18,306 nt of DNA. Source: Candidatus Bathyarchaeota archaeon. GTDB lineage: Archaea; Thermoproteota; Bathyarchaeia; 40CM-2-53-6. Position numbers and translations under genes: made by a program. Below the pieces are notes generated by a model. The model worked only from the letters and a program-made list of their open reading frames with translations. It had not been told where the DNA came from and did not search any database. The stretch is from NCBI GenBank assembly GCA_005888755.1, contig VBBQ01000018.1, positions 3,256-21,561 on the forward strand. Direction: 5' to 3'. Below are positions 121-17,923 of the stretch, in pieces. Position 1 is the stretch's first letter. Each line of letters begins with the position of its first letter.

Positions 121-369
121 CTAATTATCCTCTAAAAGGTACAAGACCCTGCCCGCGAACCCTTCGCTAGCAGCGTCGGGCTTTACGGAGACATATGGAC
201 TCTTCACAGGACCGAGAATATTATTGACCGTCCCAATACTCTTGATCTTGTAATCGACCACTCGGACACGTTCTGCTGGCACTGGTGGCTGTTCGAGCCG
301 AACAATCAGGTTACCGCTCTTCGACATGTGCAGAACTTTGCCAAGCCGTCTTAATCCCGCACCTGGCAC
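121..369 (-). CDS. gar1: H/ACA RNP protein Gar1
   Basis: Gar1 is a small beta-barrel protein of the H/ACA ribonucleoprotein, where it helps Cbf5 release pseudouridylated RNA. The sequence shows the typical archaeal pattern: a Leu-Gly-Lys-Val-Leu-His opening strand, Ser-Lys-Ser-Gly-Asn-Leu-Ile-Val-Arg, then Gly-Thr-Val-Asn-Asn-Ile-Leu-Gly-Pro-Val-Lys-Ser-Pro-Tyr-Val and a C-terminal hydrophobic strand. The frame is open up to a TTG at 396. However, a good TATA box on this strand at 410-403 puts the transcription start near 380, so I chose GTG 369, giving 82 residues and a short leader. The TFB gene follows 14 bases downstream. Family identity is firm; the exact start is an inference. Confidence 0.85.
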   Translation of the reverse strand: MPGAGLRRLGKVLHMSKSGNLIVRLEQPPVPAERVRVVDYKIKSIGTVNNILGPVKSPYVSVKPDAASEGFAGRVLYLLEDN

Positions 370-402
370 ACTCCAATGAAAGGCGAAAAATGCCAAATCG
401 CG

Positions 403-455: not shown

Positions 456-2447
456 TTGAACAACAAGGCTGCCGGCGAAAAATTGATCCTCGAGGTCCAA
501 CTCTCCAACTTCATGTCCTACAAGAACACCAGCATCCCACTCCGGCCAGGCCTAAACCTGATCATCGGACCAAACGGCGCAGGAAAATCTTCCATACTGC
601 TGGCAATCTCAGTCGTCCTAGGTCAAGCGTACACAGAGCGAGCAAAAAAACTCAGCGAGCTAATACGCTGGAACGAACAAGAAGCCCGCATCTCACTTCT
701 CTTAGACAACGAGGCGCCGAGAGGTCCAAGACCGTTTCCACAAGCAAGATCAGACAAGGTCCTCCTAACTAGAGTTCTGAAGAGGTCAGGAGATTACCAC
801 TACTTGCTCAACAACAAACCCATCAGCAAGACCAGCCTAATCGAAGGACTATCCAGAGTCGGACTCAACCCTGACAACATGCTAGTCATAATGCACCAAC
901 TTATGGTTGGACGATTCGGCTCAGTCAGCCCAATAGACAAACTGCTCCTCTTGGAGGATGCTGTCGGGTTTGGAGCCTATCGTCGAGAGGTACTCGAAGC
1001 CTCTTCTCGTCTGCAGAAACTCACGACTGAACGCGAGACAATGTCCTCGGTCCTAGAGGGCACGAAGGAGACCTACTTGCACTGGCAGCGTGAATACGAG
1101 AAGTACGAGCTGAAGAGGAAACTTGAAGATCAGTACAAGGATCTCCAGAGAGAACTAATCTGGAGACGCATCATTAGAAGAGAGTCCTCACAAGAGAGGG
1201 TCAAGGAGCGCATCTCATCTTTGCACGGCAAGATAGAAGAGACGAGAGAAGAGTTTGAGACATCGCACAAGCAACACCAGCAGGTCCTTGTCGACCTTGC
1301 AAAGGTCTCAGAGCAATTGGAAGCGCTGAGGGCGGAGCACCTGAAGCTTGAGCATGGCCGCGGCCTTCGAGCAGGTGCGCTCGAATGGATGGCAAGAGTC
1401 ACGAGCCTCCTACGGTCACAACAGGACGTTTTGACCGCTCTTCAACAGAGAACTCATGATGCGAGCTTGGCAAAGGAGAACGACCAACTGAGTCACATGT
1501 TATCTGACCTAGTGGACGAACGGGAAAAAATATCGGACACTGCGAAGAACGCGAACCAGGACTTTGAGAGAGTTCGCATAGGGATTTCCGAACTCGCTTC
1601 ACAACTCAGCAAGAATACAGACCTACTCATAGACTCCAGAGTCAAGAAAGAGGTCAGCAACTTCAAACTCGCGTTGATGGAACAGGAGGTCCAAGAACTC
1701 GGGGTCCAGCTGCGAATTGGCCAAGAAGAAATAGAACCCCTAAGAACACAAGCATCTCAGCTCGGACCAGTTTTCGAGAATCCTAGAGACCTGCAACAGA
1801 TCTCATTAGACGTCGCTTCCGTCCAAGAACGTTTACGCCCGCTCGCACATCTCTCCGCTGAGGTCGAAAAGATGTACAAGAACTATGGGGAGCTCTATGA
1901 AGGGCTAAGGAAAAAAGCCGAAGTTGTAGAACAGAATAGGTCCGAGGTTCTTGGCGAACTGAGAGAACGTTTCGACCGATGGAAAACGGTCATGGACAAG
2001 CTGCTGGAGGAACTCTCAACAAAATACAATACGTTGCTGTCGGAGGTGGAGTCAAAGGGACGAATCGTCATGAAAGCCTCCAAAGACATCGAGAAAGCAG
2101 GCCTCGAACTTTACGCGGGGTTCAAGGGAAACGAGCCAGTCTCGCTGGACGGTCTAGCTCCAAGTGGGGGCGAACGGACGGTCGCACTTGTCGCATTTCT
2201 CCTCTCCCTACAACAGTTCATCTCATCTCCTTTCAGGGCGATCGATGAGTTCGACGTTCACATGGACCCGCGAAACAGGGAAACAGTATCCAAGCTCATC
2301 TACGCTGCCTCAAAGGCCACCGATTCTAGTCAGTACATTGCGATCACGCCAGGACAGGTCACCATCCCAGGAGAAGAAAACGTCCATGTGATCATTGTCC
2401 AGAATATCCAGGGCAGTTCCATGGTCAGGGAGCTAGCACAACCATAA
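456..2447 (+). CDS. Short-armed SMC ATPase resembling Smc5/Smc6
   Basis: This 663-residue protein is an SMC-family chromosome or DNA-repair ATPase. The Walker A loop GPNGAGKSS spans residues 38-46, and a Q-loop region (His147-Gln148) is followed by FGSVSPIDKLLLLEDAVG at 154-171. Two coiled-coil stretches cover roughly 175-300 and 340-545. The C-terminal head has the SGGER signature at 570-574 and the Walker B/D-loop block SPFRAIDEFDVHMDPRNR (591-608), then SQYIAITP (626-633). The Pro-Phe-Arg, Asp-Glu-Phe-Asp and Ser-Gln-Tyr...Ile-Thr-Pro elements match eukaryotic Smc6 and Smc5 better than canonical Smc. There is no Rad50-type CxxC zinc hook and no obvious globular hinge; canonical Smc is near 1,170 residues. 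The start is TTG 456, with an in-frame stop just upstream; TTG 483 is an alternative. It is the first gene of a three-gene operon with kleisin-like and KITE-like proteins. Confidence 0.9.
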   Translation: MNNKAAGEKLILEVQLSNFMSYKNTSIPLRPGLNLIIGPNGAGKSSILLAISVVLGQAYTERAKKLSELIRWNEQEARISLLLDNEAPRGPRPFPQARSDKVLLTRVLKRSGDYHYLLNNKPISKTSLIEGLSRVGLNPDNMLVIMHQLMVGRFGSVSPIDKLLLLEDAVGFGAYRREVLEASSRLQKLTTERETMSSVLEGTKETYLHWQREYEKYELKRKLEDQYKDLQRELIWRRIIRRESSQERVKERISSLHGKIEETREEFETSHKQHQQVLVDLAKVSEQLEALRAEHLKLEHGRGLRAGALEWMARVTSLLRSQQDVLTALQQRTHDASLAKENDQLSHMLSDLVDEREKISDTAKNANQDFERVRIGISELASQLSKNTDLLIDSRVKKEVSNFKLALMEQEVQELGVQLRIGQEEIEPLRTQASQLGPVFENPRDLQQISLDVASVQERLRPLAHLSAEVEKMYKNYGELYEGLRKKAEVVEQNRSEVLGELRERFDRWKTVMDKLLEELSTKYNTLLSEVESKGRIVMKASKDIEKAGLELYAGFKGNEPVSLDGLAPSGGERTVALVAFLLSLQQFISSPFRAIDEFDVHMDPRNRETVSKLIYAASKATDSSQYIAITPGQVTIPGEENVHVIIVQNIQGSSMVRELAQP

Positions 2448-2620
2448 CAGAGAAGGTCACTCGAGCGTCCGGGAGACGGGAGTTAGAGGAACTAATTCAG
2501 ACGTGCATTTCCATCGAGAACCGTCGGTTCAATCCATTTCTCCTGGACATCTCCGAGGCTCTCAGCATAATCCGGCGTCACTCGAACAAGCTGCGGACCC
2601 TCGAAGACCATCTGCTCGAT

Positions 2621-3238
2621 ATGCGTGCGATTACGAGCGTTGCTAGAGTTGTGGGATTGCAGAGTGCAGACCTGAGATTCCAGTCCAGCGCCCTCTATGT
2701 CGATCCTAGTATGGTTAAAGAGAAGTTAGATTCGCTATCGAGAGAGCAATTGGCCGAGTTTCTCCTCCTCTCATGGCATCCGATCGTGGAGTTGGAACAA
2801 CTAACGCTGGCCTCTACCAAGGAAGCGAAAGAATTTTGGGAAAAAATGCTCTCGTTCTTCGAGCGGCGAAAGAGACTCCACCTCGGACCCTTCGCCATGC
2901 CTGAGACAGCTGATCTAGGCGAGCTTGCCCGCATGCGTGTACTCGATGAGAAAGCGTATACAACAAAAATGCGAGACCTTTGGAAAGAACTCAAGGAGAG
3001 AGCTGGCGAAGACCAAAGAGTAGACTATTGGGACTTCATTGGAGGATCGGACTTTGCTCAAACCATTGTCCGAGCACAACTTGTCAGCTTTCTTGTGAGT
3101 TACGGATACGCGAACCTGCTACGCACGGGGAACAGCTTGTTTCTAGTCCCGAAAGCAAAGCCCGATCCTCATCTCGAAGGGTCGCCGCTCAGCTTTCCGA
3201 TCCCGATCACAAAGGAGGCTCTCGTACGGGCGAAGTGA
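2621..3238 (+). CDS. Kleisin-like partner of the SMC protein (Nse4-like C-terminus)
   Basis: The assigned frame gives 205 residues from ATG 2621. Residues 134-178 read as a small winged-helix block: Val-Asp-Tyr-Trp-Asp-Phe, then Phe-Ala-Gln-Thr, seven residues, SFLVSYGYA and a Leu-Val-Pro end. This closely follows my memory of the Nse4 C-terminal domain (Phe-Ser-Gln-Thr-Val, seven residues, Ser-Phe-Leu-Val-x-x-Gly), the part that binds the Smc5 head. The front half is helical and polar. The gene lies between an SMC gene and a KITE-like gene and overlaps the latter as GTGA, exactly where a kleisin is expected. The same frame is open and protein-like upstream to about 2444, so the true N-terminus is probably longer, with a non-standard start (see findings). 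Coding status is firm; the kleisin role is an inference from the motif and context. Confidence 0.7.
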   Translation: MRAITSVARVVGLQSADLRFQSSALYVDPSMVKEKLDSLSREQLAEFLLLSWHPIVELEQLTLASTKEAKEFWEKMLSFFERRKRLHLGPFAMPETADLGELARMRVLDEKAYTTKMRDLWKELKERAGEDQRVDYWDFIGGSDFAQTIVRAQLVSFLVSYGYANLLRTGNSLFLVPKAKPDPHLEGSPLSFPIPITKEALVRAK

Positions 3239-3852
3239 AAAACGAACCGGCGTACTATAATGAAAAGGTCAAGCGCGCAGCACACATGCTCTTCTTCAAA
3301 CGTGGAAGAGTGCCTGGTGCAAGATCCTGGGAGTTGAAAACAGGCCTCGGAAAGGGCTATGCGAAAGTCCTCGAACAGCTAGATGAGAGTCTGAAAGACT
3401 TAGACCTTGAAGTCAAGAAGGTCGACCCCCAGATCGTGTCTGATTACAAGCCAAGACCGGACGATGGGGAAGAAGAGTCCCGCTATTTCGTCCGTCTCAA
3501 AGGAACACTGGCTCCCAAGGAAGCAAGATTGTGCGGCTGGAGAATCGACAATCTCGCAGCCCTTGCAGCGTCACTGGCGCTTGTAGTATCCAAACAAGGT
3601 AAGAGCGAAAGGAAGGAGATTGAAACTGTCATCGGGAATAAGGCCGGGCGCTGGAGAGCGCTGACTCTAATGGACACTTTCCTCCGATCCGGTTACCTAG
3701 AAGAGGACGAGGAAGGACTTGTCAAGCTTGGCTGGCGGACGCGCGCGGAGCTCGATCTTCCGAGTCTAATGATGCTCCTTGCCGAATCGAAGGCATCACC
3801 CACGGAGGACATCGAGTCTATCGATGAGGATCACGCGTCGATGGATGGCTGA
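3235..3852 (+). CDS. Tandem winged-helix KITE-like protein (Nse1/Nse3-MAGE-like)
   Basis: This 205-residue protein starts at GTG 3235, which overlaps the TGA of the preceding gene (GTGA), and so is translationally coupled. An AAAGGAGG sequence ends 16 bases upstream. The first helical segment (about 10-66) and the second (about 104-175) each look like a winged helix. Between them, Tyr84-Phe-Val-Arg-Leu resembles the Tyr-x-Leu-Val strand of MAGE proteins. The second unit ends with SGYLEEDEEGLVKLGWRTRAEL (152-173), like the Gly-Tyr-Leu...Leu-Gly-x-Arg-x-x-x-Glu-Leu ending of Nse1/Nse3. KITE proteins (ScpB, MukE, Nse1/Nse3) bind the middle of a kleisin, so the context supports the call. The Nse1 RING finger is absent. 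The C-terminal tail is acidic. Its last 22 bases overlap a convergent gene. Another DNA-binding winged-helix protein is the main alternative. Confidence 0.65.
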   Translation: MKNEPAYYNEKVKRAAHMLFFKRGRVPGARSWELKTGLGKGYAKVLEQLDESLKDLDLEVKKVDPQIVSDYKPRPDDGEEESRYFVRLKGTLAPKEARLCGWRIDNLAALAASLALVVSKQGKSERKEIETVIGNKAGRWRALTLMDTFLRSGYLEEDEEGLVKLGWRTRAELDLPSLMMLLAESKASPTEDIESIDEDHASMDG

Positions 3853-10175: not shown

Positions 10176-10757
10176 GTGCAGAATCTGAAATACGTCGCAC
10201 CCAGCTGGGACGACGTATATAGAATGTTGGTAGACCTTGCAAGTGAGATTCGGCTGTCAGGATACAATCCCCAGGTCATCGTAGGGGTCTCACGAGGCGG
10301 CTGGCCTCCCGCTAGGGTCATGAGCGACCTCCTTGAGAATCCAAATCTTGCCAACATGAGAGTAGAGTTCTACAAAAACATCGGAGTGACAGCGAAAAGG
10401 CCGAAGATCTCCCAGCCCGTCACCTCTGAGGTTTCTGGGAAGCGCGTACTCGTAGTGGACGATGTCTCCGATTCAGGACACAGTCTGCGCGTTGCCTCCA
10501 AACATCTAGCTAGAAAGGGCGCACGGGAGATCAAGGTCTGTACTCTATATTTGAAGCCAAAGAGCGTCTTCAAACCAAACCATTATGCAAGAACAACCTC
10601 AAAGTGGGTGATCTTTCCATGGGAAAGATTGGAGGCCATCAACCTCATCAAAAGGAACCTCCGGTCAGATGGAGGAACATACGAGATAATTCGGGAGCTG
10701 AAAGGCAGTGGATTGAGTGGCCCGCTCATTAGAAGGCTCTTGGCGCTGGATCGATGA
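10176..10757 (+). CDS. Phosphoribosyltransferase (type I PRTase)
   Basis: A 193-residue protein from GTG 10176. Val-Ile-Val-Gly-Val-Ser-Arg-Gly-Gly (35-42) is the pyrophosphate loop and Val-Leu-Val-Val-Asp95-Asp96-Val-Ser-Asp-Ser-Gly-His-Ser-Leu is the PRPP-binding motif of type I enzymes. The flexible hood is ordinary and the C-terminal part (Trp-Val-Ile-Phe-Pro-Trp-Glu-Arg) resembles archaeal xanthine/hypoxanthine-type enzymes. The substrate is probably a purine base, but this cannot be settled. The stop overlaps the next gene's start (ATGA), so it is coupled with the KEOPS gene cgi121. The coupling suggests shared expression rather than shared chemistry. Confidence 0.85.
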   Translation: MQNLKYVAPSWDDVYRMLVDLASEIRLSGYNPQVIVGVSRGGWPPARVMSDLLENPNLANMRVEFYKNIGVTAKRPKISQPVTSEVSGKRVLVVDDVSDSGHSLRVASKHLARKGAREIKVCTLYLKPKSVFKPNHYARTTSKWVIFPWERLEAINLIKRNLRSDGGTYEIIRELKGSGLSGPLIRRLLALDR

Positions 10758-11320
10758 TAACTGAGAAAATCGGGTCATATTCCCTGTTTGTCCAAGGATT
10801 CAGAGACGCCAATGTAACAGACTCAGAGAAAGTCTTGCGGGATCTGCGAGGATCCTTTCCGGGAGTTGATCTTCAGCTCTTGCGCGCGGATAGAGTAGCG
10901 GGGAGAGAACACATCGTCTTCTCGGCAAGGAGCGCGGTTGAATCCTTCCAAAGCAAGAATCGAAGGGCGAAACATCTCTCAATGGAGCTCCTCCTGTTCG
11001 CCTCGGGTGAGCACCAGATCATCGAAGCAATCAAGCTTCTCGGCGTAACCGCGTCTAGCAGAGAACTCGCTCTCGTGGGGCTCTCCGACACCAGGCTTGA
11101 TTCGAACCAGTTGAGTAACAGAGCAATGGAATCCGTCAAGGGAATACCTGATGATACAGTCTTGCAGATTAAGACCCGGAAAAAAGTGGAGGATCTGAAG
11201 AGAGCCTACTATATTCCCGACAAAGAGCTGAATGCATCGAAGATGCCGAGTGAGGAAGACAACAGTGTATTGAAGAGATTGATCATCGAGCGCTCTGCGC
11301 TTTTGGCACTGGAGAACTAG
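10754..11320 (+). CDS. cgi121: KEOPS complex subunit Cgi121
   Basis: A 188-residue protein from ATG 10754. Cgi121 binds the Bud32 kinase and, in archaea, helps the KEOPS complex capture tRNA for t6A37 synthesis. The recognisable core is Asn-Arg-Arg-Ala-Lys-His-Leu-Ser-Met-Glu-Leu-Leu-Leu-Phe-Ala-Ser-Gly-Glu-His-Gln-Ile-Ile-Glu-Ala, followed by Ile-Lys-Leu-Leu-Gly-Val. The C-terminal tail (Asp-Lys-Glu-Leu-Asn-Ala-Ser-Lys-Met) is longer than in many homologs. The gene is coupled to the PRTase by ATGA, and its stop shares a CTAG with the convergent Tan1-like gene. The TsaC/YrdC gene of the same pathway lies about 0.5 kb away on the other strand. Confidence is good from the core motif and context. 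Confidence 0.8.
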   Translation: MITEKIGSYSLFVQGFRDANVTDSEKVLRDLRGSFPGVDLQLLRADRVAGREHIVFSARSAVESFQSKNRRAKHLSMELLLFASGEHQIIEAIKLLGVTASSRELALVGLSDTRLDSNQLSNRAMESVKGIPDDTVLQIKTRKKVEDLKRAYYIPDKELNASKMPSEEDNSVLKRLIIERSALLALEN

Positions 11321-11856: not shown

Positions 11857-12498
11857 TCAATGTTCGACTTTTGCCTTGAGAGCCATTACGATCTCTTGTC
11901 GGCTAATTGCTCCTTCTCGCAGAATATCGACATGGTTGCCCGCTACTCTGACGACCGTTGACTCCGGACTCTTGGAGAGGGACCCTCCATCCAGAACGAG
12001 ATCGACTTTGCCTTCAAAGGTCTTCAATGCTTCTTCTGCTCGCGTCGTGGAGGGAGCGCCTGAAATGTTCGCGCTTGTACCTACTAGGGATCCTCCACAC
12101 ATCGAAATCAAGTCCAACGTATCTTTCCGTCCAGGGATCCTAAGTCCAACCATGCGGTCAGTACCAACTATCGCGGGGGGGAATTCTGCTCTCGACGAGA
12201 CTACGATAGTTAGGGGTCCGGGCCAAAATCGCAAAGCAAGCGTCTCGGCGTTGCCATCGACTTCGCCTAATTCCTTTGCCTTCTCAATTGAGCCAACGAG
12301 CACTGGGAAGTTCCCTTTGCTTCTTCTCTTTACATCTGACACCTTGTTGACCGCTTCCTTATCGAATGGATGGCATCCAAGTCCGTACACCGTGTCCGTC
12401 GGGTAGACCACGAGTCCGCCCTTGAATATCGTTGCCGCCGCTTCACGAATCGATTCGCTCCCAATCCTAAGAAGCCTAGTCAACGTTTTTGCAATCAT
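11857..12498 (-). CDS. tsaC: Threonylcarbamoyl-AMP synthase (TsaC/YrdC-type)
   Basis: The chosen ATG 12498 gives 213 residues; the frame is open back to 12573, but a TATA-like box upstream of 12498 supports the shorter protein. The enzyme makes threonylcarbamoyl-AMP from threonine, bicarbonate and ATP, the first step of t6A37. Key stretches are Val-Val-Tyr-Pro-Thr-Asp-Thr-Val-Tyr-Gly-Leu-Gly, Lys-Arg-Arg-Ser-Lys-Gly-Asn-Phe-Pro (nucleotide and RNA-side basic motif), Phe-Trp-Pro-Gly-Pro-Leu-Thr, Arg-Ile-Pro-Gly and Gly-Thr-Ser-Ala-Asn-Ile-Ser-Gly. The length matches single-domain TsaC/YrdC rather than two-domain Sua5. It leads a small operon with the Tan1-like gene and lies next to cgi121 of KEOPS, the next step of the same pathway. 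Confidence 0.9.
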   Translation of the reverse strand: MIAKTLTRLLRIGSESIREAAATIFKGGLVVYPTDTVYGLGCHPFDKEAVNKVSDVKRRSKGNFPVLVGSIEKAKELGEVDGNAETLALRFWPGPLTIVVSSRAEFPPAIVGTDRMVGLRIPGRKDTLDLISMCGGSLVGTSANISGAPSTTRAEEALKTFEGKVDLVLDGGSLSKSPESTVVRVAGNHVDILREGAISRQEIVMALKAKVEH

Positions 12499-12514
12499 CG
12501 GGGGCAAGTCGACT

Positions 12515-12523
12515 CTTATATCT
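12515..12523. promoter_or_regulatory. TATA-like box in the divergent tsaC/asparaginase region
   Basis: The sequence reads ATATAAGAG on the minus strand and CTCTTATAT on the plus strand. It is centred about 21 bases before ATG 12498 and 35 bases before TTG 12554. This could serve a leaderless tsaC transcript and a short-leader asparaginase transcript, or only one of them. Confidence 0.4.
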
Positions 12524-12553
12524 CGTTGAGATGGGACGCCATCGGACTCAAAA

Positions 12554-13489
12554 TTGGCCAATCCAACGATCATTGTTCATGGCGGGGCCGGCAACTGGCC
12601 CAAGAACAAACACGCAATTGGCCTCTCCGGAGTTCGGAAGGCTGCCACGAGAGGATTCCAGATCCTCCAACAAGGCCGCTCCGCAATCCAAGCCGTCGAA
12701 GCTGCAGTCATAGAAATGGAAGATAATCCGATCTTCAATGCTGGCAAAGGGTCCACCCTGAACTTTGAAGGTAACGTTGAGGCCGACGCGGGAATCATGG
12801 ACGGAAAGACATTGCGTGGAGCAGGTGTCGCACTCTTGCATCAGGTGAAAAACCCGATCAGCCTCGCAAGAATTGTCATGGAGAAAACTGACCACGCTCT
12901 TCTAGCAGGCAAGACTGTCGAGAGGCTCGGGGAAGCTTATGGTCTGCCAAAGGCGAACCTAAGGCTTCCAGAGCGTATCCGCCAATGGAAACAGGCAAGA
13001 CGCGAGTTGGAAAACGGGAGCATCAAATACTTTTCCAGAAACTTGAAACTCGTTCATGACAAGGGGAGACTCTTTCTCGGGGACACGGTTGGCGCGCTCG
13101 CGATGGACCAAAGGGGAAACTTGGCTGCGGCAGATTCTACAGGAGGCGTTTCCTTGAAATTGCCAGGTAGAATCGGTGATAGCCCAATCCTTGGCGCTGG
13201 ACTGTACGCTGATAACAAGCTTGGAGCTGCCACAGCAACCGGCGTTGGCGAGATAGCTATGAGGTTGGTCGTGTCTAAGGCGGCTTGCGATGAAATGCAG
13301 TCATTGACCGCACAACGTGCGGCCTCTAAAACAGTGAGGCACGTGACAAGGTTGGCTGGCAGAGGACTAGGGATTCTATCTCTTGACCGAGAAGGTAGAT
13401 ATGGAATCGCTCACAATACACTGCACTTGTGCTGGGCCGCAGAGACCAAGGACAAGGGTCTTGTCTCACAGATGGTTGGCAGTCGCTAG
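12554..13489 (+). CDS. Plant-type L-asparaginase / isoaspartyl peptidase (Ntn hydrolase)
   Basis: A 311-residue protein from TTG 12554. It begins with Ile-Ile-Val-His-Gly-Gly-Ala-Gly and contains Asn-Pro-Ile-Phe-Asn-Ala-Gly-Lys-Gly-Ser and Gly-Asp-Thr178-Val-Gly-Ala. Thr178 is the expected N-terminal nucleophile after self-cleavage of the Gly-Asp|Thr bond. Asp-Ser-Thr-Gly-Gly, Gly-Arg-Ile-Gly-Asp-Ser-Pro-Ile and Ala-Thr-Gly-Val-Gly-Glu complete the substrate pocket. These enzymes hydrolyse L-asparagine and beta-aspartyl dipeptides. The length is normal and all visible key residues are present. It is transcribed away from tsaC and followed by T-tracts; there is no apparent functional link to its neighbours. 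Confidence 0.9.
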   Translation: MANPTIIVHGGAGNWPKNKHAIGLSGVRKAATRGFQILQQGRSAIQAVEAAVIEMEDNPIFNAGKGSTLNFEGNVEADAGIMDGKTLRGAGVALLHQVKNPISLARIVMEKTDHALLAGKTVERLGEAYGLPKANLRLPERIRQWKQARRELENGSIKYFSRNLKLVHDKGRLFLGDTVGALAMDQRGNLAAADSTGGVSLKLPGRIGDSPILGAGLYADNKLGAATATGVGEIAMRLVVSKAACDEMQSLTAQRAASKTVRHVTRLAGRGLGILSLDREGRYGIAHNTLHLCWAAETKDKGLVSQMVGSR

Positions 13490-13839: not shown

Positions 13840-15387
13840 ATGCAGCAATTATCCCTCAAGTTCAAAGCCCTACCCATGATCGCGCTATCCTTTCTCTTCG
13901 TCATTCCTACAATCGCATTCCAGCCGGCCCAAGCGGCCGCCACAACAAACCCCGACTTTTCTGCTCAGAGCTTCAGCAAGACCGTTGACTGGTATGATTA
14001 TGTCCGCCAGTACGCCGTAGCCAATAATCTGCCTCAGCCCAATGCGAGCGAGCACGCCTACATCTACACCAACTATATCAACGTCGGCGGCTTCCAGCTC
14101 TTCTACACGGGTCTAGTGAACGCGACCCACAACGGACAGTTCGTCACCATCCCACTCCAGACATTCTTCGAACACTACAAGACCATAGGCGGCAAAGACG
14201 CGATAACGGCATCATCCTTCATCAGCCTCGTCGCCTTCAATGAATCCAACACGGATCCGTACCCGAACTCGCCTGACAAATCAGACACGGTCTACGCCAG
14301 CTTCAGCCTGGGAGTAAATCTCACCCAGATAACAGGCCACAGATTCCCCTCCTATGTCGCAAGCAGCAGCATCATCCCGCTCACCCAGACAGACGCGAAT
14401 CACTGGAGCTGGGGCTTGAACTACACCAACCTTAACGCGATATGGTGGAAGATCAACCCCGACCCATTCTTCCCGACAGCTGACCTTGTCCAGCCACGCG
14501 GCTTCGCCATGTACAGCCAACTGACCTTCAACTACGCGCTCGCCATCGACCCGGCATCTAAGACAGCCACCCTCACCACTAGCTACACAATCGGCCGGAT
14601 GACCGATCTCTACATCCTCTACCCGATACCGGCCATTCATCTGAACTCAACCGGGACGTACAACCTCAACGGTGCACGGGTCAACAGCCAAAACATCTAC
14701 CAGTTCCTAGACACAAAACAGCTCAAGATATCGATCGTCATGGCTAACAAGGCGATTCTAGCCAGCAGTGTCATTGACAAGGACGACTCTGGTGCTATCG
14801 TCGACAACGGGAACTCCACCGATGTAAGCCACACAGCGGTCACATCCGCTACAAGCGACGGCGACAAGGTCTTCAAAACAGACTTCGGCGTCAAGCCAAC
14901 GTACAAGCTCTACAACTACACCGCGGATGCTACTGAAAGTACTGCAACCACCCTCAGCACTAACGTCCGGACAGTCAACATCCACGCCTGGGCCGGCAAT
15001 CCCGTCTTCTGGTTCCAGAACCGCTTCATGGGATTCCTTCCACTATTCGTTGCCAACGTGGATCCAGGCCTAATCCAGCAAGCGAAGCAGGGACTTCTAG
15101 ACCTCACATTCTCAGACTATCTCTACATCATATCCTACCCAACATGGGGAGGATACAAGATCGTGCACGACCCTGACTACACCGCGTTCTACACTCCAGC
15201 TAGCAACGTCGGACTGCTGACAGCGGTCTTCCTAGCAGTAGCGGTCGCCGCGGGAGTTGGCGGTCTATTCGCCTTCCTATTCAGGAAACGAAGAGCAGCC
15301 GGAATAGCCGTCAGTGGTGCGGGGACAACTGGTCCAACCCCGACTCCGGGTCCTACCCCCTCGGGTCCACCTATTCCAGGCCGATAG
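13840..15387 (+). CDS. Secreted, membrane-anchored protein of unknown function
   Basis: A 515-residue protein from ATG 13840. Residues 1-32 form a signal peptide: a basic start, a hydrophobic core (Leu-Pro-Met-Ile-Ala-Leu-Ser-Phe-Leu-Phe-Val-Ile-Pro) and an Ala-Gln-Ala cleavage site. The large outside region is rich in Tyr, Asn, Thr and Ser with many Asn-x-Ser/Thr sites, fitting a glycosylated surface protein. A membrane segment at about 457-481 is followed by Arg-Lys-Arg-Arg and a Pro-Thr-Gly tail. I recognise no domain. It lies about 100 bases upstream of an ABC transporter pair on the same strand, so it may be a partner or cargo, but nothing shows a binding-protein fold. Confidence 0.8.
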   Translation: MQQLSLKFKALPMIALSFLFVIPTIAFQPAQAAATTNPDFSAQSFSKTVDWYDYVRQYAVANNLPQPNASEHAYIYTNYINVGGFQLFYTGLVNATHNGQFVTIPLQTFFEHYKTIGGKDAITASSFISLVAFNESNTDPYPNSPDKSDTVYASFSLGVNLTQITGHRFPSYVASSSIIPLTQTDANHWSWGLNYTNLNAIWWKINPDPFFPTADLVQPRGFAMYSQLTFNYALAIDPASKTATLTTSYTIGRMTDLYILYPIPAIHLNSTGTYNLNGARVNSQNIYQFLDTKQLKISIVMANKAILASSVIDKDDSGAIVDNGNSTDVSHTAVTSATSDGDKVFKTDFGVKPTYKLYNYTADATESTATTLSTNVRTVNIHAWAGNPVFWFQNRFMGFLPLFVANVDPGLIQQAKQGLLDLTFSDYLYIISYPTWGGYKIVHDPDYTAFYTPASNVGLLTAVFLAVAVAAGVGGLFAFLFRKRRAAGIAVSGAGTTGPTPTPGPTPSGPPIPGR

Positions 15388-15485
15388 CGCGTACAATTTC
15401 CCGTCCTGGCATTCTTCTTTCTCGTTCACCTAAGGAACAGTGAGCTAAACTTCATCTCCAATGCTGATACCGCAACGAACTATCC

Positions 15486-16262
15486 ATGACAACGACCGGT
15501 TCAGCGATTGATGTTTCACACCTGACAAAGACTTACGGACCTACCGTTGCCCTCAACGATGTCACGCTATCAGTTGGCACCGGTGAAGTACGAGGCCTCC
15601 TCGGACCCAACGGGTCAGGAAAATCAAGCCTGATGAAGACAATCATAGGTGTGACAAAGCCATCCTATGGCTCAATCCAGGTCCTCGGCTATGATGTCCG
15701 AGCAAGCCCCATGGAGATCAAGAAGATTGTCGGCTATGTACCCGAATCACCACGCCTGTACGAATTCCTCACTGCGACCGAATATCTTGATTTCATCGCT
15801 GACGTTCGAGGACTGCCGTTCGAACAGAAGAAAGAGCGTATCGCGAGATTCGTCGACGCCCTCGACCTCGAAGGAAAACAGGGCGATATGATCAGCAGCT
15901 ATTCGCAAGGCATGAAGCAAAAAGTCGCGATCATAGGAGCACTGCTCCACAGGCCTCGAGTCTTGCTCATGGACGAACCGCTCAACGGGTTAGACCCGAA
16001 ATCAGCCCGGTTGGTGAAGGAGCTTATCCACGGTTTTGCAAGGGAAGGCGTGTCGGTGGTGTTCAGCACGCATATTCTTGAGATCGCTGAGGCCATCTGT
16101 GACAAGTTAACGATCCTTCAGGGAGGGAAGATCCTGGCAGAGGGAACTTCCAAGGACTTGAGAGAGAATGCAGGCCTTCCGGGATCGGGACTCGAAGATG
16201 TCTTTCTGAAGCTCACCGGAACCAAGGGAGTCGAGGATATCGTCGAGGCACTGATTAGATGA
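15486..16262 (+). CDS. ABC-2-type transporter, ATP-binding subunit
   Basis: A 258-residue ATPase from ATG 15486. Walker A is GPNGSGKSS (40-48), the signature is SQGMKQK (140-146), Walker B is VLLMDEP (159-165), and the switch His196 lies in STHI. The Q-loop position reads Val-Pro-Glu-Ser, with Glu in place of the common Gln, as in many ABC-2 exporters. The C-terminal extension after residue 225 is typical of this class. Its TGA overlaps the permease start (ATGA), so the subunits are coupled. The substrate is unknown; this class exports drugs, lipids, polysaccharides or sodium. The secreted protein upstream may be related. Confidence 0.9.
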   Translation: MTTTGSAIDVSHLTKTYGPTVALNDVTLSVGTGEVRGLLGPNGSGKSSLMKTIIGVTKPSYGSIQVLGYDVRASPMEIKKIVGYVPESPRLYEFLTATEYLDFIADVRGLPFEQKKERIARFVDALDLEGKQGDMISSYSQGMKQKVAIIGALLHRPRVLLMDEPLNGLDPKSARLVKELIHGFAREGVSVVFSTHILEIAEAICDKLTILQGGKILAEGTSKDLRENAGLPGSGLEDVFLKLTGTKGVEDIVEALIR

Positions 16263-17923
16263 GACTTCCCGTTCTGTTCAAGTTTGCCAAGATTTTAATG
16301 ATTTCGCGGCTTCGAAGTACCCGACGCTCAATCGTCTCGAAGAGCATTACCAGCCGGCCGATTCTCATCGGCTTGATAGGAATCGTTCTCTTCTTCGCTG
16401 GACTCTTCTTTGGATATGAGACAACGGTCTTTCTTAGTTCTGGAGGAGCACCGTTGACGGGGCCCGCCGCGCATCAACTTGTCGTGACGATTTTTGGAGG
16501 AGTGCCTCTTTTCCTTGTAGGTTTCTACTTTACTATGGGACTCTTGTGGGAAGTGAACGCTTCTGCGGAGGCTGAAAGTACAGACGCGATTAACTGGCTC
16601 CCCATAACGCCTGGGGAGTATGTGGCAGCCTCGGCGCTTTCGACCAGCTACACATACTCTCCGCTCCTGATGGTCGCCTTCGGCTACTCTCTTCCAATCG
16701 GACTTCTCACTGGGAACCTGGCTGGATTCTTGTTGCTTGTTCCGATCGCCCTGTTGTCTACGTCCGTGGGCTCGGTCAGCGTCGAGATTCTAAGGTCAGC
16801 ATTGGCTAGCGCATCAACAGCGTTCAACAGGCTCGGCGGTAGAATAACAGTAATAATGAGAATCATCGGAATAATCCTGATACTCCTAGTTACGCAGCTT
16901 CTATTCAGCGGAGTCTTCCTGATCCAGATAATTGGCTCCCTCGTCGGAACCGCAGCCGCGGCTAGTTTCGTACCTGTCTTCTGGCCGACGCTCGCCATAA
17001 CCAAGGTGCTCCAGTCCGACTTTGTTGGAGGTGCTGGATTTCTAGGGCTGAGTGTAGCACTGTTTCTCTTGCTGTCGTACGCGGCCCTTTTCTTGCGGGC
17101 TAAATATTGGGCCGTGACTCCTGCAGCCCTCCACTTCGCCGGAGCCGGCTCTGTGTCGGGGCCAAGCCGACTAGGCTACCTTGGCCTCAGTTCCTCCTCG
17201 ATTGCAATGCTCAGGAGAGAGATTCGCTCGGCAACCCGAAGAAAAGAAGTGGTCAGACTGATGGCAATACCGATTATCATGCCCATCATGATATCGTTTC
17301 CAGCCATCTTCTCCCCAGCCCCATCATCAACGTCTGGACCCGCTCAAATTGATCCGATTTTTCTAGTTATTCCGTTTCTGTTCGGGATCGGACTGGGCTC
17401 ATTGTTTCTTGGCATGACCTCGATTGGTCAAGAGGGAAGAAGGTTGTGGAACATCAGCACATTGCCAGTTTCTGCCAAGATGCTTGTGAAGAGCAAGCTC
17501 TTGTTCACGTCCCTAGTCTCAAGCATTGGGCTTGGTCTCGGAGCTGTAGTCTCCGCCCTTCTCCTACACGCCTCGATGTTCGTTGTTCTCGGGTTCTTAG
17601 GCCTGGGGCTCATCGTAATACTGGCCGAGGCAAGCCTTGGAATCGCTGTAGGGTCCAGGTTCCCGGATTTCTCAGACGGTCCAAGGCCAAGATTCGTCAC
17701 AGTAATTGGCTCTTTAATTGGAGCTGTTCTGGGGATTGTGGAGATGGCAATAATGGCCTTCCCACTCATCTTCTCATTCATCCTAAGAACTTTCTTCGCG
17801 ATATTGATACCCCTACAATTTGTGCTGGTCTTTTCAGGTTCGGTAGGGGGCCTTCTCGCCTGGATAGCTTACGTCCTATCGGTCAAGCCTGTCGATTCTA
17901 TTCTTGCAGAATTGCCCAACTAA
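16259..17923 (+). CDS. ABC-2-type transporter permease
   Basis: A 554-residue membrane protein from ATG 16259, coupled to the ATPase by a four-base overlap. About twelve hydrophobic stretches are visible, from Pro-Ile-Leu-Ile-Gly-Leu-Ile-Gly-Ile-Val-Leu-Phe-Phe near residue 35 to a last one near residue 535. A large loop separates the two halves (about 280-345) and contains a basic patch (Arg-Arg-Glu-Ile-Arg-Ser-Ala-Thr-Arg-Arg-Lys). The pattern fits a full-length ABC-2 permease that pairs with an ATPase dimer. I saw no substrate signature. Confidence 0.85.
   Translation: MRLPVLFKFAKILMISRLRSTRRSIVSKSITSRPILIGLIGIVLFFAGLFFGYETTVFLSSGGAPLTGPAAHQLVVTIFGGVPLFLVGFYFTMGLLWEVNASAEAESTDAINWLPITPGEYVAASALSTSYTYSPLLMVAFGYSLPIGLLTGNLAGFLLLVPIALLSTSVGSVSVEILRSALASASTAFNRLGGRITVIMRIIGIILILLVTQLLFSGVFLIQIIGSLVGTAAAASFVPVFWPTLAITKVLQSDFVGGAGFLGLSVALFLLLSYAALFLRAKYWAVTPAALHFAGAGSVSGPSRLGYLGLSSSSIAMLRREIRSATRRKEVVRLMAIPIIMPIMISFPAIFSPAPSSTSGPAQIDPIFLVIPFLFGIGLGSLFLGMTSIGQEGRRLWNISTLPVSAKMLVKSKLLFTSLVSSIGLGLGAVVSALLLHASMFVVLGFLGLGLIVILAEASLGIAVGSRFPDFSDGPRPRFVTVIGSLIGAVLGIVEMAIMAFPLIFSFILRTFFAILIPLQFVLVFSGSVGGLLAWIAYVLSVKPVDSILAELPN

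Follow-up and report, generated by a model that had tools for sequence, protein, structure and literature searches.

A probable Smc5/6-lineage SMC-kleisin-KITE operon in archaea, with an SMC protein predicted to lack the hinge

A three-gene operon and its conservation

We analyzed an 18,306-nucleotide stretch (the window) of contig VBBQ01000018.1 from a Candidatus Bathyarchaeota archaeon, in which genes for an SMC (structural maintenance of chromosomes) ATPase, a kleisin, and a tandem winged-helix KITE protein follow one another on the plus strand within positions 456 to 3852. The SMC gene (456..2447, TTG start) encodes a 663-residue protein assigned to the Smc5/6 lineage that has no hinge domain. 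The kleisin gene (2444..3238) encodes a 264-residue Nse4-like protein and starts at an ATA codon that overlaps the SMC stop. The KITE gene (3235..3852) encodes a 205-residue Nse3/Nse1-like tandem winged-helix protein, and its GTG start overlaps the kleisin stop. Both junctions are 4-base overlaps, and the three genes are a translationally coupled trio. The window lies on contig C15 (our notation) of a 2.0-Mb archaeal genome of 48 contigs that is 95% complete, and its nearest relatives are soil metagenome-assembled genomes (MAGs) labelled Candidatus Bathyarchaeota, with SMC identity of 97%. Against close relatives, the ratio of nonsynonymous to synonymous substitution (dN/dS) is ∼0.05 to 0.09 in the SMC, kleisin, and KITE genes, most changes being synonymous. 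Each gene is under purifying selection, and chance is excluded as the source of the arrangement.

Relatives begin the kleisin with an ATG at the overlap with the SMC gene, and in locus L015 (97% identical) that ATG corresponds to the ATA at 2444. Because of this start position and because the upstream frame is conserved, we read the kleisin as 264 residues from 2444; the ATA is either an unusual start codon, a real one-base variant, or an assembly error. The mechanical open reading frame of 205 residues from ATG 2621 was ruled out, since the frame upstream of it is open and carries the conserved kleisin N-domain.

A scan of a genome collection returned 80 loci from Bathyarchaeia, Nitrososphaeria, Conexivisphaerales, Hecatellales, Geothermarchaeota, Methanomethylicota, Thermofilales, and other groups, together with one Thermoplasmata MAG. 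Gene content was followed in 79 archaeal loci with a short SMC (535 to 676 residues, window included). The kleisin was present in 77 of these loci and the KITE in 74, with both partners in 74, and the order SMC-kleisin-KITE was kept on a single strand within 2.2 kb in 72. Among loci that reach far enough downstream, 74 of 75 contained both partners. Four of the five incomplete loci are contig ends, at most 745 bases from the SMC gene, and the sole true exception is L060, where a trio-type SMC has no kleisin or KITE in the 8 kb downstream. An earlier reading of the window's sequence (the original prediction) had described three closely packed plus-strand genes; the overlaps bear this out, and the survey extends it to related archaea. 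Pairwise distances of the three proteins were correlated (r = 0.81 to 0.84, Mantel P = 0.001), and the subunits appear to be co-evolving. KITE profile matches were found in 157 of 398 genomes and 77 of 163 genera of the window's phylum, nearly always in one copy, and in 2 of 194 genomes of the phylum of locus L083, one of them the genome of locus L023. The trio has probably been retained in a large part of the phylum Thermoproteota, where it stands alongside the canonical Smc-ScpA-ScpB or takes its place.

The SMC protein and its two partners

Three ATPase motifs of the SMC head lie on the plus strand of the window: Walker A GPNGAGKS (residues 38 to 45, 567..590), nearly every position of which is invariant across 51 relatives; the ABC signature SGGER (residues 570 to 574, 2163..2177), recognized by family conservation; and Walker B with the D-loop, PFRAIDEFDVHMD (residues 592 to 604, 2229..2267), where an R before xxDE and MD in place of LD are common to Smc5/6. 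Family members show little or no variation in Walker A, Q-loop, signature, and Walker B, and therefore the ATPase should work. The D-loop reads HMD in 80 of 80 scorable family members, and a downstream [IVL]TP motif occurs in 78; Smc5 and Smc6 likewise carry MD and TP. In canonical archaeal Smc of like genomes, the D-loop is LD in 15 of 15, and the printed strings show no TP.

When the SMC profile was compared with the PDB, yeast Smc6 (E = 8.6e-70) and yeast Smc5 (8e-67) ranked first, followed by human Smc6, Pyrococcus Smc (3.4e-58), and Smc2 (3.9e-48). A head-only tree of 282 columns was built from 30 trio-family members, eukaryotic heads verified against PDB chains, and canonical archaeal Smc taken from trio-bearing genomes. 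The archaeal family grouped with Smc5 and Smc6 in one clade (support 100/100), apart from Smc1 to Smc4 and canonical archaeal Smc. Profile ranking and tree thus both agree with the Smc5/Smc6-like head that had been predicted.

In the AlphaFold2 model of the SMC (alignment of 51 sequences, mean predicted local distance difference test [pLDDT] score of 86), residues 173 to 529 (972..2042, plus strand) form a coiled-coil hairpin with no globular hinge. A 161-residue outgoing helix (173 to 333) leads to a tight turn (334 to 335), from which helices 336 to 436, 446 to 463, and 469 to 529 return; the tip turn (1455..1460, plus strand) occupies the usual place of a hinge or zinc hook. SMC_hinge is not among the Pfam families listed for 51 SMC family members, and the inter-head coil segment spans 211 to 298 residues across the short forms. 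The protein is thus modelled as an SMC without a hinge dimerization domain, a plain coiled-coil hairpin, with an arm of about 24 nm as estimated from helix length at 0.15 nm per residue. The missing hinge is a feature that the original prediction overlooked. Its proposal of a compact Smc5/6 relative with one SMC gene holds for gene number and lineage, but the protein is not merely a scaled-down version, because its model contains no hinge.

A hinge-free protein could instead be a Rad50- or coalescin-like archaea-specific SMC-related protein (ASRP) that acts without a kleisin and has two unrelated genes downstream. Rad50, coalescin, and Sph are coiled-coil ABC ATPases that likewise lack an SMC hinge, Rad50 models match the trio SMC head, and a long paralogue has a CxxC hook-like motif. 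Two such long members, L071:2941-6060 (1,039 residues) and L072:1657-4860 (1,067 residues), both from Bathyarchaeota loci, carry a Rad50-like CDKCGS zinc-hook motif and are nested within the trio SMC family tree. The kleisin and KITE were not found downstream of either, and one long-member genome contains a canonical and a short SMC as well, three in all. A CxxC hook motif occurs in these two members only and in none of the short forms. Unlike Rad50, coalescin, and Sph, which rely on a zinc hook and lack kleisin and KITE, the trio SMC has no hook and has both partners, whose genes are kept in 74 of 79 loci. Its matches to SMC and Smc5/6 are far above Rad50 in score, and the kleisin profile matches Nse4 as well as both end domains of ScpA. 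We consider a kleisin-independent Rad50-like protein extremely improbable.

Profile and Pfam matches identified an Nse4-like C-terminal winged-helix block in the kleisin (DYWDFIGGSDFAQTIVRAQLVSFLVSYGYANLL, 3023..3121, plus strand), in agreement with the original prediction. The kleisin profile matched human EID3/Nse4B (E = 1.4e-5) and yeast Nse4 (3.3e-5) best, then ScpA domains (0.02 to 0.08). Nse4_C was matched by 24 of 51 family members (best, 1.6e-6), while the next Pfam family reached 4. In a profile-profile comparison with canonical archaeal ScpA, the match (E = 4e-8) extended over 193 columns and covered both end domains, and therefore the product of gene 2 is a kleisin. Only in its C-terminal domain does the trio kleisin resemble Nse4; no match was obtained to the Nse3-binding region at the N terminus of Nse4. 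Family-wide scans and profiles were needed for these assignments, as a Pfam scan of the single window partner proteins returned no relevant match.

The structural model of the KITE is a tandem winged helix (pLDDT of 84.6) whose top three Foldseek matches are all Nse1/Nse3 entries, with ScpB sixth. By VIA, the model scored Z = 11.9 against Nse3 (root mean square deviation of 4.2 over 170 residues) versus Z = 8.7 against ScpB (143 residues), and the ScpB profile had no significant match to the KITE profile. Sequence matches to MAGE/Nse3 and Nse1 are weak, and these are the only ones among SMC partners. The predicted Nse1/Nse3-like character is favored by the fold, while the identity of the protein cannot be narrowed to either Nse1 or Nse3. 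With a single KITE gene, there is no one-to-one match with Nse1 plus Nse3, and the 205-residue protein has no extra domain such as the Nse1 RING.

Canonical operons of like genomes served as a control. Their kleisins match ScpA, Rad21, and CAP-H2, none Nse4_C. Every one of their KITEs matches ScpB, and no match to MAGE or Nse1 occurs. Together with the LD D-loop, this agrees with the predicted difference of canonical Smc-ScpA-ScpB in head and partners. The outcomes that would have spoken against the original prediction did not occur: Smc6 and Smc5 outranked Pyrococcus Smc for the head, Nse4 led for the kleisin, and the KITE fold was closest to Nse3 and Nse1.

A candidate archaeal relative of Smc5/6

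Gene structure, conservation, subunit families, intact ATPase motifs, and absence of the hinge are established here by computation. We hold the family assignment of the trio with high confidence, and the product of the operon is probably an SMC-kleisin-KITE complex belonging to the Smc5/6 lineage. It shares with eukaryotic Smc5/6 the head lineage and the motifs PFR, DEFDV.MD, and ITP, and with Smc5/6-Nse1-Nse3-Nse4 an Nse4-like kleisin C-domain and, judged by its fold, a tandem winged-helix partner resembling Nse3/Nse1. Unlike eukaryotic Smc5/6, a hinge-joined heterodimer, it has one SMC gene and one KITE gene rather than two of each, no hinge, and arms about half as long. It has the same three-gene logic as canonical Smc-ScpA-ScpB and a homologous kleisin, whereas canonical Smc has ∼1,190 residues and partners that match ScpA/Rad21 and ScpB rather than Nse4 or MAGE/Nse1.

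Several points weigh against an Smc5/6-lineage complex. By structural alignment, the head is 28 to 31% identical to Pyrococcus Smc versus 22 to 24% to Smc5/6, a ranking that long eukaryotic branches could cause, and a fold comparison scored all SMC heads alike, with no discrimination. None of the KITE sequence matches is significant on its own, the best being to MAGE (E = 0.0026). A hinge-less SMC pair would need another dimer interface to stay together, and we infer assembly of the complex, its stoichiometry, and DNA binding. The first of these points would suit a fast-evolving duplicate of canonical archaeal Smc-ScpA-ScpB whose link to Smc5/6 is long-branch attraction, as would the long branches of Smc5, Smc6, and the trio family in the head tree. 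However, an approximately unbiased (AU) test, run on a reduced sequence set with a simpler model, rejected grouping the family with canonical archaeal Smc (P = 0.004 and 0.005). The MD and TP residues common to the trio SMC and Smc5/6 are discrete characters, and kleisin and KITE point separately to Nse4 and Nse1/3, which canonical partners in such genomes do not. An origin by duplication of the canonical operon is therefore unlikely. For the branching order among Smc5, Smc6, and the archaeal family, no alternative was rejected (AU P = 0.25 to 0.59).

Yoshinaga and Inagaki in 2021 (cited in PMC9389158) reported that one group of archaeal SMCs, termed "SMC5/6-related," falls together with eukaryotic SMC5 and SMC6; the trio SMC very probably belongs to this group. 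The Smc5/6 affinity of an archaeal SMC is therefore not new; the account in PMC9389158 concerns the SMC only and mentions no kleisin, KITE, or missing hinge. Our literature search, whose coverage did not extend to preprints and most subscription papers, found no description of the trio kleisin, the KITE, or the missing hinge.

By analogy with the Smc5/6-Nse1/3/4 head module, the complex may act as an ATP-gated DNA clamp, an outcome to which we give slightly better than even chances. ATP would engage the heads of two SMC copies, and the kleisin would bridge them asymmetrically, its N-domain contacting the neck of one SMC and its C-terminal winged helix the head of the other. The KITE, in one or two copies, would attach to the kleisin and hold DNA down against the heads in their engaged state. 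The homodimer suggested originally would need a non-hinge interface, since the hinge dimerization domain is absent. With neither hinge nor hook, the arms would lack the customary lock at their distal ends, and the ∼24-nm arms may be held only by heads, kleisin, and perhaps coil or tip contacts. Arms joined only near the heads would lead one to expect a clamp or short-range DNA tether, which might act on replication and repair intermediates; we favor this over long-step loop extrusion. Where it is the sole SMC complex, the trio might double as chromosome organizer.

The chances are about even that the trio is an archaeal sister of the whole Smc5/6 core, a hinge-free SMC-kleisin machine showing that a closed hinge ring is dispensable for clamping. 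If so, the Smc5/6 and cohesin/condensin lineages would have split, all three subunit types included, before eukaryotes arose. A natural hinge-less SMC-kleisin complex would offer a direct test of which ring elements clamping, loading, and loop extrusion depend on. Among eukaryotic SMC complexes, Smc5/6 is the one understood least, and the archaeal trio would make its origin and minimal design testable.

Canonical operons and gene neighborhoods

The genome of the window also has a canonical operon, on contig C13, where ScpA- and ScpB-like frames adjoin a canonical Smc. A Pfam search of this genome for ScpA found nothing, which we attribute to insufficient sensitivity because the ScpA-like frame is readable next to the canonical Smc. 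With canonical operon and trio in one genome, the cell would contain two complete SMC systems, one per lineage. Among 40 trio-family genomes checked, ∼26 also have a canonical-type Smc and ∼14 have only the trio, some of the latter perhaps incomplete. The ∼14 are mostly Methanomethylicota and Thermofilales-like. The trio appears to be the sole SMC complex in Methanomethylicia and Thermofilales-like genomes, and these archaea, for which no canonical Smc was shown here, would gain a candidate SMC complex. A 2020 survey (PMC7055376) described cases of Crenarchaeota with no smc, scpA, or scpB and of archaeal Smc with no working kite; the trio is a candidate exception to this picture.

An Lhr-type helicase gene follows the trio in 38 loci, mostly convergently (e.g., L073:12717-15566, Pfam WH_Lhr and DEAD), and, in 10 Methanomethylicia-type loci, a eukaryote-type topoisomerase IB gene sits upstream in divergent orientation (e.g., L041:5621-7159). 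These neighbors would fit a role in DNA topology or repair, which we offer as a suggestion. Nse2 SUMO ligase and Nse5/Nse6 were not found among recurrent neighbors, the whole genome not having been searched for them.

SMC-like ATPases are frequent in defense systems, and the PADLOC models mad3, LmuB, and AriA match the generic SMC head, as would be expected if the trio were an anti-plasmid or anti-phage system like Wadjet (JetABCD) or Lamassu rather than a housekeeping complex. However, the two partners match no PADLOC model, and no JetD-like nuclease was seen among recurrent neighbors. One copy per genome in the 157 KITE-positive genomes and congruent protein distances look like vertical inheritance, and we judge a defense function very unlikely.

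Other genes were noted beside the operon and elsewhere in the window. A conserved protein of ∼227 residues without a Pfam match occurs in 34 loci, often divergent from the SMC gene (e.g., L050:5912-6598, minus strand). A gene that looks Gar1-like by eye (121 to 396, minus strand) is oriented divergently to the SMC operon in the clade of the window; in relatives, a TFIIB-like gene adjoins it. The genes at 10754 to 11320 and 11857 to 12573, close together, seem by eye to be tRNA t6A genes, coding for a Cgi121-like subunit of KEOPS and for a protein of the Sua5/YrdC type. A secreted protein, an ABC ATPase, and a membrane permease are encoded in a row at 13840 to 17923, by eye an apparent transporter operon.

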